The notes beneath the pieces were generated by a model, which did no database searches, was not told where the DNA came from, and saw only the letters and a list, made by a program, of their open reading frames with translations. Source: a virus. From it: a DNA stretch of 44,645 nt. Both the position numbers and the translations under genes were made by a program. The stretch covers positions 1 to 44,645 of the IMG/VR virus record IMGVR_UViG_3300021440_000044; one strand, given 5' to 3'. Shown here in pieces: positions 224-22,842 of this stretch. Every line of letters starts with the position of its first letter. Positions within the stretch are counted from its first letter, which is position 1.

Positions 224-784
224 TTAAAACAACTTTTGGTATTCGCGTTCGGGCAAATTGGCCTTTACCCATTTCGGTTCATTGACCAACGCCCAACGCC
301 CGAAATGCAACAACAACAGGGCGTCCGCGTTCCACAACGTCACATTGACGCCCGGGTACAATTGCGCGGCCGTTTCCCTGTACCGGCGTTTCCGGTCGGC
401 CTTTTCTTCGTGTTGGCCACGAACCCGCAATTTCAATTTGGTTTGCCAACTCAATGGATGAACCAATACATACGGAATCCCGGCGGTTTCGATTAGGGCT
501 TTCAAGTGTTCGAAATTGGCCATCATCTTTTGAACCCGGTACAACTTTCCCATCGCGGCCCGGTCGCCCTGTACAACCACGTCGTCCGGGCGGACCGACA
601 ATTTTTCCAAAAAGACAATCGGTTTGAAATTGTCTTTGTAATACGTGAAGAAATCCCGCAAATCGGTAATGTCTTTCGGCATCTTCAACGCCTTTGTATT
701 GTGGCCGGGAACAAACACGGCGATTCCGCCGCCGCTTCCCGGGTCCACGCCAATAACACAATTGATTTTAATTTTCTGTTCCAT
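224..784 (-). CDS. ruvC-like: RuvC-like Holliday junction resolvase
   Basis: A 186-aa protein with the RuvC/RNase H-fold layout. GVDPGSGGG at residues 12-20 supplies the first acidic residue (D14), FLEKL gives E60, and NADALLLLHFG near residue 152 gives the C-terminal acidic cluster (D154). Length and spacing fit phage RuvC homologues. The role is to resolve branched DNA made during recombination and replication before packaging. It belongs to a recombination set with the exonuclease at 4613, the ATPase at 41065 and SSB at 36239. It starts at an ATG four bases downstream of the methyltransferase stop. Confidence 0.9.
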   Translation of the reverse strand: MEQKIKINCVIGVDPGSGGGIAVFVPGHNTKALKMPKDITDLRDFFTYYKDNFKPIVFLEKLSVRPDDVVVQGDRAAMGKLYRVQKMMANFEHLKALIETAGIPYVLVHPLSWQTKLKLRVRGQHEEKADRKRRYRETAAQLYPGVNVTLWNADALLLLHFGRWALVNEPKWVKANLPEREYQKLF

Positions 785-787
785 CTT

Positions 788-1514
788 TTAATCAAATAAT
801 GTCGGGTTTATTTCCGGTTGTGATTTACCAATTAGGAAATCGCAAATGAAATTTCTTGCATAATCGGGGCTTATCATAGAACGTTCTTCCGAACAAACAC
901 CGGCTTTTCCGGACGGTTTCGCGTATTCAACCCGTTTGTGTTCTTTATCGTCTTGTTCCGTAAATCCGTTTTCCGGTTTACAATTGAAAAACCAATATCC
1001 GGTCGGTTTTTTATAATAATCCCCGCGTAAACGCCTGTTGTTGTCCCTTATATCCGGTTCTTTTATGAAAAATGTTGAAAGAAAAGACATTGTTAACGGG
1101 TTTTCAAATATCATCCTTATATTCCGCCGCAAACAAACGCCAATGAATTTCAATAATCGCGTAAAGTATTCGTCCCGCCTTTTTTCCCTATCTATAATTT
1201 TATCAATCTTTTCTGCATCGGAAAGTTTTTTATAATTTGTATATGAAAACCCAAACGCGGTTTGTGACATAAAACAGAAATAGACACAAGGATAAAAAGC
1301 AATAATTAAATCGTCGCTAGTAATTGAATCAAAGACACTTGCCCCCCCCCTCATACGCTTTTTCAATTTCGGCGAAAAGGTCCATAACGTGGTCGGTTTC
1401 GCCAAAATTGTTTTGTATATCATAATCTTTGGCTTGGATTCCAAGTTTGATAAATTCATTTTTGAACGTCCCGGATTGCTCAAAAAAGCAATGCACCATT
1501 CCATTTATTTCCAT
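788..1514 (-). CDS. DNA (cytosine) methyltransferase-like protein, split by a G9 tract
   Basis: Reading starts at the ATG at 1512-1514. The frame breaks at a run of nine G on the coding strand (1342-1350) and would stop soon after at TGA (1329-1331). If the tract had 8 G (or 11), the two frames join into one protein of about 241 aa ending at 788. The joined protein resembles a phage/prophage DNA methylase family: FFEQSGTFKNEF at residues 10-21 as the SAM-binding region, AFYPC with a Cys near residue 76 like the PC motif of C5-cytosine methylases, and later ENP, GDYYKKPTGYWF and ERSMISPDYA motifs. Likely role: methylating phage DNA against host restriction. As given in this window it is out of frame. 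Phase variation, frameshifting or a sequencing error are all possible. Confidence 0.8.
1342..1350 (-). repeat. G9 homopolymer (possible phase-variation tract)
   Basis: Nine consecutive C on the plus strand read as nine G in the methyltransferase gene. It lies at about codon 56, between well-conserved coding on both sides in two different frames. I noticed no other G or C run of this length in the window. Confidence 0.85.
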
Positions 1515-1517
1515 TGC

Positions 1518-1763
1518 TTAAACTTTCAAAAAACGAACGTCATAATGCGAAACACGGGTAATATGAATTTTTCGCCCGGATTCGTTTGTTGTCTTGATAC
1601 CATAACCACGGAACGATTGCCAAATTTCGACAATTTCCCCGGCTTTTATAACATCGCCCGCGTTGTTTATCAAATCGCATAAAACAACCGCTTTTGCCCC
1701 AATTATCCGTTTTGGTTTTTTTAGAACCGGCAAACAAATTTCGTTTATTTTTGACCAATCCAT
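1518..1763 (-). CDS. Hypothetical protein, possible SH3-like beta barrel (81 aa)
   Basis: An ATG-started ORF between the 295-aa protein and the methyltransferase, with short gaps on both sides. The middle, from about residue 22 (GAKAVVLCD, then GDVIKAGEIVEI), alternates beta strands and glycine turns like small SH3/KOW-type barrels. That is inference from composition only. No family recognised. Confidence 0.65.
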   Translation of the reverse strand: MDWSKINEICLPVLKKPKRIIGAKAVVLCDLINNAGDVIKAGEIVEIWQSFRGYGIKTTNESGRKIHITRVSHYDVRFLKV

Positions 1764-2657: not shown

Positions 2658-3419
2658 TTATCGTGCCATATCTTTCAAATATTCGATTGCATCCGGGGAC
2701 AATGCGCCGCCGGGGTTCAACCGGTGCAATTTCTTGTTTTCCATATCGCGCCGCATAAAATTCCGGGCCGTCGCAATCCAATCTTTCATCTTTTTTCCAC
2801 CTTGCGCGGACCAATCCTTTACGGCGTGGTAATAATACGCAATATCCACGTCGGCAAATTCCGGGGCCGTAAATTCGGCGGCAAACGCGTTGTATTCGGA
2901 GAACCGGGAATTTTCGAACAGACACGCGGCCGGTTCGGCGGTCCGGCGCGGCCGGGTAACTGTAACCGTTTCAAACGCGGGTTCGGTCGGGAACAAACCG
3001 CCGTCGGCGGCTTTATTTGGGTTATTATCGGGTTTTATATCTGTTACGTTATTTATAACGGATTTGCCCGATTGGTCGTTACCATTTGACGTTTCGGTAA
3101 AATGCTTTTGCCCTTTCTGTAAAAAGGAATCGCCGAAAGCGTACCACGTTGTACGGTCGTATGCCGACGTGTTAAAATTGCCTGTCACGATAACGCCTTT
3201 TTCTTCCAAAGATTTGAGAACACGCCGGATTTGCCGGGCCGTCCAAAACGGAAACAATTTCGTAAACGCTTCGATACTGTTGTACGTCCAAAAACGGCCA
3301 TCGTGAAAATGTTTGCCGTTCGCTTCATTCTTCCGAATCCAAAATTGCAAATTGGCAATCATTATGGATTCGTCCACGCCATACAGGGCGGCAATATCTG
3401 TATCAAATTGGTATGTCAT
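2658..3419 (-). CDS. Winged-helix replication initiator / DnaD-like protein
   Basis: A 253-aa protein. Its N-terminus (residues 5-95) is typical of phage replication initiators: an opening helix, IANLQFWIRKNEANG, then FWTYNSIEAFTKLFPFW, then a winged helix around TARQIRRVLKSLEEKGVI. The C-terminal third has a KDWSAQGGKKMKDWIATARN stretch resembling DnaD-like tails. It probably binds the phage origin and recruits host replication proteins, since I see no phage polymerase, helicase or primase. The ATG at 3417-3419 overlaps the stop of the HNH gene by 4 bases. The origin may lie within or beside this gene, but I cannot place it. Confidence 0.82.
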   Translation of the reverse strand: MTYQFDTDIAALYGVDESIMIANLQFWIRKNEANGKHFHDGRFWTYNSIEAFTKLFPFWTARQIRRVLKSLEEKGVIVTGNFNTSAYDRTTWYAFGDSFLQKGQKHFTETSNGNDQSGKSVINNVTDIKPDNNPNKAADGGLFPTEPAFETVTVTRPRRTAEPAACLFENSRFSEYNAFAAEFTAPEFADVDIAYYYHAVKDWSAQGGKKMKDWIATARNFMRRDMENKKLHRLNPGGALSPDAIEYLKDMAR

Positions 3420-22056: not shown

Positions 22057-22842
22057 TTATCGTGTCTTATTTGCCCGTTTTTGGGCCTTTTCGGCCTGTT
22101 TCGCCCGTTCCTTGACAAAATCGAACGCGTTGTAAAATTCCAAAACGGAATATTCCTTTGGTTTGACGTGCAATTGTTCGGACAATACCAAACAAAGGTT
22201 TTCAAATTGGCGGTCAAACTGTATTTCCACGCCATCCGAACCGGCAAACGATTTCGGGTTGGAATACGTTATTAACGCCGTCGTCAACTTTTCGATTTCC
22301 GTGGTTGCATCCGGGTTTTTCACGCCCGCAATGATGTTCGCCAAAACCGCCATCGTCCGTTTCTTCAAAAGGTCGTAATACTCTTTAATTTCGGAATCGG
22401 CGAACAGGCCCGGGAAATACAACCTTAATTCCCCGTCAATTTTTTTTTTGACCGCTTCCAATTGGGCGGTCAACTCTTTTTCGGGGACGTCTTGCAAGGT
22501 TTCCAACAATTCAGTCAAGGCCACGTCGGAAAGGTCGTTGCAATCCCGGCCGTCAATCTTCGTTACCAACGCGGCAAACGCCCGGTGTTTTGGGTTGATT
22601 TCCGATTGGATAAGAAACACGGTTTGGCGCAAATTTTCCAATTCCTGTTGCGCCTTTTCGGTCTTTCCGTCCATAAGGAACCGGCGCGTTTTCTCAATGC
22701 GTTGGTCGAACGCCACAATATCGGCCCCAATCCCCGCATCAATCAACAACAACTTTTGGTATTTGTGAAACCGCACAATCGGCAATTCTTCGATTGTGTC
22801 GTACATTTCGACCGTGTGTTTTCCAATCTTGACCGTTACCAT
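22057..22842 (-). CDS. Tail assembly chaperone candidate (261 aa)
   Basis: Immediately upstream of the tape measure, the standard place for tail assembly chaperones. The ATG at 22842 gives the N-terminus MVTVKIGKHTVEMYDTIEEL; the longer frame upstream overlaps the membrane-protein gene. Helical and highly charged, with a Lys/Arg-rich C-terminus. It contains A10 (22440-22449) at the Val-Lys-Lys-Lys codons, a potential slippage site, but I see no long overlapping frame of the gpG/gpGT kind. Confidence 0.62.
   Translation of the reverse strand: MVTVKIGKHTVEMYDTIEELPIVRFHKYQKLLLIDAGIGADIVAFDQRIEKTRRFLMDGKTEKAQQELENLRQTVFLIQSEINPKHRAFAALVTKIDGRDCNDLSDVALTELLETLQDVPEKELTAQLEAVKKKIDGELRLYFPGLFADSEIKEYYDLLKKRTMAVLANIIAGVKNPDATTEIEKLTTALITYSNPKSFAGSDGVEIQFDRQFENLCLVLSEQLHVKPKEYSVLEFYNAFDFVKERAKQAEKAQKRANKTR

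Follow-up and report, generated by a model that had tools for sequence, protein, structure and literature searches.

In Fletchervirus phages of Campylobacter, receptor-binding proteins have been described as phase-variable through poly-G tracts (Sorensen et al. 2021, doi 10.1016/j.celrep.2021.109214, via the reviews PMC11868660 and PMC11959909). In bacteria, phase-variable DNA methyltransferases and phasevarions (type III mod, type IIG) are well known, one example of such an enzyme being M.Hpy300X of H. pylori with its G-tract (PMC12003011). Phage orphan DNA methyltransferases are thought to protect phage DNA from restriction (review by Murphy et al. 2013, cited in PMC9311878), and prophages of the Bacteroides fragilis group have been found to exchange methyltransferase genes (PMC10333322). 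Here, we describe a G9 tract within a phage orphan DNA methyltransferase gene and propose that it is a simple-sequence contingency locus, captured in the OFF state. We put the probability of this reading at about 0.85; no reads were available, and switching is inferred from sequence comparison.

The proposed switch resembles that of Fletchervirus in being a hypermutable phage poly-G tract with frame-based ON/OFF expression, generating diversity within a phage population. The Fletchervirus switch acts on a gene for host-surface recognition, whereas the gene studied here encodes a DNA-modifying enzyme and lies in a replication module; and, unlike Fletchervirus, the phages considered here are mainly associated with Bacteroidales and carry di- and pentanucleotide versions of the repeat as well. 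Bacterial phase-variable methyltransferases likewise have a simple-sequence repeat within the methyltransferase coding region and frame-dependent expression, but they usually belong to restriction-modification systems, whereas this one is a phage gene without an adjoining restriction enzyme. With phage orphan methyltransferases (PHROG 757; Pfam Dam, PF05869) the locus shares a stand-alone methyltransferase in a phage genome, and phase variability of such enzymes is undescribed in the literature we searched. The B. fragilis group prophages occupy the same host group and have many varied methyltransferases, but they vary by gene swapping, and the passages of PMC10333322 consulted describe no repeat-length switch. 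No report of a phage-encoded phase-variable methyltransferase was found in the open-licence literature searched, which is not proof of priority. Phage switching of this sort has been reported in that literature for host-recognition proteins only.

The window, that is, the whole stretch of DNA analysed (44,645 nucleotides), is a virus contig from IMG/VR (IMGVR_UViG_3300021440_000044) with the genes of a tailed phage, including a terminase, a portal and a long tape measure protein. The methyltransferase gene occupies positions 788 to 1514 on the minus strand, and the G9 tract (C9 on the plus strand) lies at 1342 to 1350, spanning codons 55–58. The first reading frame (1329–1514, minus strand) starts with ATG and yields a 61-aa product in the present, OFF state. 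This product begins MEINGMVHCFFEQSGTFKNEF and ends EIEKAYEGGGKCL before the stop; 56 of its residues are homologous to PHROG 757 and comprise the SAM-binding start (FEQSGTFKNEF), and the last five are out of frame. The remainder of the enzyme, in a different frame, is encoded by 788–1341 (minus strand) and reads SVFDS...FYPC...ENP...ERSMISPDYARNFICDF to the stop. The open reading frame that contains it overlaps the first, extending over 788–1504; this second frame carries on as SVFDSITSDDLIIAFYPCVYF...ENP...ERSMISPDYARNFICDF and ends at 788. A first-pass annotation had claimed that the N-terminal 56 residues and the rest of the enzyme lie in different frames at a nine-G run, and the open reading frames, the run itself and the profile alignment all agree with this. 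Its second claim, that eight Gs would restore a single protein of 241 aa, also holds: the gene is 727 nt long, and removal of one base leaves 242 codons including the stop.

Both parts match phrog_757 consecutively, the N-terminal part at 14–62 of 247 positions (E 2.7e-5) and the C-terminal part at 69–219 of 247 (E 1.4e-13), which rules out two separate genes. An internal restart producing a functional short enzyme can be ruled out as well, for the product would be without the SAM-binding start. In a frameshift-aware alignment to a profile of relatives, positions 1–241 are covered; the frame shifts once, at codon 55, and is not interrupted by any stop. The tract is the only G or C run of seven or more in all 44,645 bases, the next longest being C6. 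If bases are taken as independent, the chance expectation for G/C runs of nine or more is about 0.0005 in the gene (37% G+C), and about 0.3 in the window (48% G+C). Because a window-wide expectation of 0.3 is not negligible, the lone G9 is not decisive; what is decisive is its recurrence among relatives. The assembly as recorded is that of an OFF genome, although the exact count of nine may be a consensus error. The difference in base composition between the methyltransferase gene and the genome suggests that the gene was recently acquired. Elsewhere in the window, T10 (A10 on the minus strand) is found at 22440–22449, within a 297-aa open reading frame directly upstream of the tape measure gene; it may serve tail-chaperone frameshifting as a slippery site, or be there by chance.

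The match of both parts along the profile places the gene in PHROG 757, annotated as DNA methyltransferase. P75, C76, E138, N139 and P140 are invariant among 29 relatives, and the window has the corresponding FYPC and ENP. We take Pro-Cys to be the catalytic motif IV, and Glu-Asn to be motif VI, of C5-cytosine methyltransferases, an assignment for which we also cite the match in fold. That match was obtained with an AlphaFold2 model of an intact homologue (L005; pLDDT 86.6): of the 50 matches listed, all are C5 methyltransferases of the DNMT3 type, with E down to 1e-5 and TM-scores of only 0.33–0.44. Pfam PF00145, the C5 family, is not matched in the window, and among 29 relatives just one matches it (E 0.01). 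A search of PDB sequences with the methyltransferase protein gave a chance match only, and weak Pfam matches of the protein to DUF402 and DarT were disregarded as weak. We regard the gene as encoding an orphan phage enzyme with a C5-methyltransferase-like fold, whose activity and target site are putative.

Downstream of the gene lies a Holliday junction resolvase (224–784, minus strand; phrog_1770, E 1.3e-24), and upstream an 81-aa protein of unknown function, without a profile match (1518–1763, minus strand), followed at 2658–3419 (minus strand) by a replication initiation or DnaD-like protein (phrog_11233, E 4.2e-37). The proximity of the resolvase and the DnaD-like gene places the methyltransferase in the replication/recombination module of the phage. 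No restriction enzyme adjoins it in the window, the matched neighbors being the Holliday junction resolvase and replication proteins, with others unmatched, and the gene thus does not qualify as part of a restriction-modification system. In cultured B. fragilis phages, the methyltransferase is flanked by an Erf-type annealing protein and an exonuclease.

Homologues were drawn from viral contigs, one genome per prokaryote species and phage records, giving 295 loci and 162 distinct genes. As the product of searches, this set is not random. One search kept 80 of its 212 hits, those with the highest full-length scores, and is biased toward open frames; to reduce this bias, additional searches started from the two gene parts that the tract separates. 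Close relatives of the window itself may lie outside the set searched: megablast of its first 6 kb against phage records gave no match, and neither of two exact DNA patterns taken from it occurred in viral contigs. The nearest rows on the family tree have no repeat.

Simple sequence repeats are present in 86 of the 162 distinct homologues, and comprise 68 G tracts, 4 C tracts, 5 (AG)n, 8 (GACAA)n and one 6-mer. Most of these (72 of 86; 59 G tracts, all five (AG)n and all eight (GACAA)n) fall at codons 51–60, where the G9 of the window sits. Other tracts occur at codons 62–67 (G8–9), 152 (C8–9) and 198–206 (G7–10). In the predicted structure of L005, codons 55–59 make up a loop that connects two helices, and the remaining main tract sites are loops as well. 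The (AG)n carriers are L030, L034, L039, L066 and L191, and (GACAA)n, of up to 11 units, is found at codons 54–56 in L078, L199, L087, L094, L103, L150, L259 and L265. Long G tracts are also seen next to these methyltransferases, in other genes or close to gene ends, namely in L205 at about 2219 (G12), L231 at about 2197 (G10), L257 at about 2775 (G10) and L123 at about 2634 (G10). In Bacteroides phage B40-8 (L023), T8 rather than T7 at position 1052, near the methyltransferase start, puts the usual start out of frame, and the start annotated in the record is a later one. A second slippery site or a sequencing error is possible.

Repeat number differs between viruses that are otherwise nearly identical. 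L164 (IMGVR 3300028886_000176) and L166 (3300028048_000179), from separate metagenomes, have no mismatches over 721 nt and carry G7 and G9, respectively; L154 and L158 differ at one position outside a tract of G8 in one and G10 in the other. In these two pairs, the cleanest for G tracts, both members are OFF. Pairs that include an ON and an OFF member come from the pentanucleotide repeat, from cultured phages and from the Dam family considered below. L078 and L199 have no mismatches, and differ in having 8 versus 6 GACAA units and an open versus a broken frame. Among cultured B. fragilis phages, BF10P2 (G7) is open, whereas BF10P1, BF10P3 and BF8P1 (G10) are broken, at 98.3% identity; similarly, BF766P1 (G8) is broken and vB_BfrS_23 (G5) open, at 98.5% identity. 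The recorded host strain of BF10P1, BF10P2 and BF10P3 is CSC10 in each case. Since open and broken copies share this host, we infer that the enzyme is not essential there. A contingency locus should vary in repeat number among genomes that are otherwise nearly identical, some of them with the frame open and others with it broken; the relatives show this, whereas for the window itself it is an inference.

These comparisons bear on whether the tract is simply miscounted, the true length being in the open class and the enzyme always made. Indel errors typically arise in homopolymers, and the window rests on one metagenome assembly without reads, so a wrong count of G9 in this record cannot be excluded. 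Error, however, cannot give dozens of phages G8–11 tracts in intact frames, or (AG)n and (GACAA)n repeats that share a loop with such tracts. Nor does it account for relatives from separate metagenomes that differ solely by two nucleotides in the tract, or for finished genomes of cultured phages that behave alike. Were the count wrong here alone, the gene would still be a contingency locus, sampled in the ON state. While we therefore consider it unlikely that error explains the observation, and error cannot explain the tracts across the family, some doubt about this one record remains.

It is also possible that the tracts are neutral, G runs accumulating in a glycine-tolerant loop without any use in switching. 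The main tracts do lie in loops, and G tracts encode Gly-Gly. Yet their abundance is hard to reconcile with such a by-product. G or C tracts of eight or more number 62 in 114 kb of gene sequence and 17 in 493 kb of non-redundant flanking sequence, a density ratio of 15.8; and under a synonymous-codon null for 119 open genes, 0.7 G tracts of eight or more are expected (maximum 4 in 200 simulations), against 31 observed. One property expected of a simple-sequence contingency locus, an unstable in-frame repeat beyond chance, is thus present. In addition, the AG and GACAA repeats encode other residues and nonetheless converge on the same loop, and purifying selection for an enzyme that is always ON should purge hypermutable runs. 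On the tree, repeat presence changes at least 45 times (49.6 with shuffled labels), so that it is almost as dispersed as under shuffling, at least 20 of these changes being forced by well-supported branches. The tree was quickly built, and the exact number is soft. As many homologues have no repeat, switching is evidently not required by every phage.

The pattern is repeated in a phage methyltransferase unrelated to the C5-like one (Pfam Dam, PF05869; motif nWGGxxvFCNPPYG), which we count in favor of a contingency locus. Some tracts in the flanks of C5-like loci (L050, L041 and L108) lie in this gene, and a pattern scan recovered 92 stretches of viral contigs with G8 or longer at the WGG-NPPY site. 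In the 80 Dam loci examined (L296–L375), tracts of G8 to G15 lie at the WGG codons before NPPY, and the frame is open in 46 and broken in 34. Three comparisons (L325 with L367, L333 with L306, and L338 or L347 with L340) reveal no mismatches over about 528 nt, a difference of one G, and an open versus a broken frame. Because the scan took only copies with a tract, it does not measure how frequent tracts are in the family. The window itself contains no Dam gene. The G run naturally present in the WGG motif may have favored tracts at this site, and could be claimed on the neutral side as well; we find a purely neutral origin of the tracts quite unlikely.

The state of the reading frame points in the same direction as the repeats themselves. 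Of 85 repeat-bearing genes, 47 have an open frame and 38 a broken one, whereas only 4 of 76 repeat-free genes are broken (Fisher p 3e-9). All but one of the 38 breaks lie within eight codons of the repeat; L114 is the sole broken repeat-bearing gene with its shift elsewhere (codon 13). At one and the same site, the frame is open, +1 or −1, depending on the relative. It has to be asked whether the G run instead serves programmed recoding, with ribosomal frameshifting or transcriptional slippage yielding a fixed fraction of full-length enzyme. G runs can slip, and leaky expression in the OFF state is possible. Programmed sites, however, hold one shift, whereas here about half of the genes are open unshifted and the broken ones need +1 or −1. 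The 2- and 5-nt repeats are not recoding signals, and repeat length differs among near-identical viruses. The gene fails as a programmed frameshift gene on these grounds, the shift not being constant and other repeat units occupying the site. Slippage as the main purpose of the tract, an option left by the first-pass annotation, is accordingly disfavored, and we rate it very unlikely. Hardest of all to credit is a pseudogene in decay, whose enzyme is no longer needed and whose first lesion is the tract. The frame in the window is broken and its nearest relatives are without a tract, but the 241 codons of the gene hold no further stop or shift and every motif residue is retained. Decay would scatter lesions in the family; the breaks observed are almost all at the repeat, repeat-free genes are seldom broken, and tract homologues are open about half the time. 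The pseudogene reading is thereby refuted for the family.

We return to the contingency locus as the preferred reading. Possible phase variation had been proposed from the window alone, and comparison with homologues now supports it: many unrelated phages carry repeats, of three unit lengths in all, in one and the same loop, near-identical viruses vary in repeat number, and breaks are nearly confined to repeat-bearing genes. Mechanistically, slipped-strand mispairing during replication of the phage DNA would add or remove Gs, although replication slippage is itself inferred. In about one-third of length classes, the frame would be open and full-length enzyme produced (ON); in the others, a stop would be reached shortly past the tract (OFF). 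As the tract is predicted to lie in a surface loop that tolerates added glycines, several ON lengths may give active enzyme, activity again being an inference. The genotype of the phage would set the DNA state of its progeny, such that the population is always a mixture of methylated and unmethylated members, provided that switching is reversible, as we infer. A phasevarion, in which the switching enzyme would alter the expression of a set of genes, could come into play only in a lysogen. Whether the benefit lies in hedging between restriction of unmodified DNA and type IV defenses against modified DNA, or in sparing a cost, is likewise inferential, and we give a hedging or cost benefit about even odds.

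Finally, the two families together make it probable that at least two unrelated types of phage methyltransferase, C5-like and Dam, have independently gained hypermutable repeats many times, amounting to a phage-borne form of epigenetic bet-hedging that is heritable and reversible, and that such phages commonly place DNA-modifying enzymes of their own under switches of repeat length. The phages concerned come largely from gut and rumen samples and are often linked to Bacteroidales. "Frameshifted" phage methyltransferases would then not simply be pseudogenes or errors. If the proposal is true, the shielding of a phage genome from restriction is a rapidly mutable and reversible trait, which would go some way to explain why orphan methyltransferases persist in phages and yet are often found broken. 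It would also offer a test of whether bacterial defenses against modified DNA select for phages that cease methylation. Because B. fragilis phages of both kinds, with the gene open or broken, are already in culture, the idea is directly testable.
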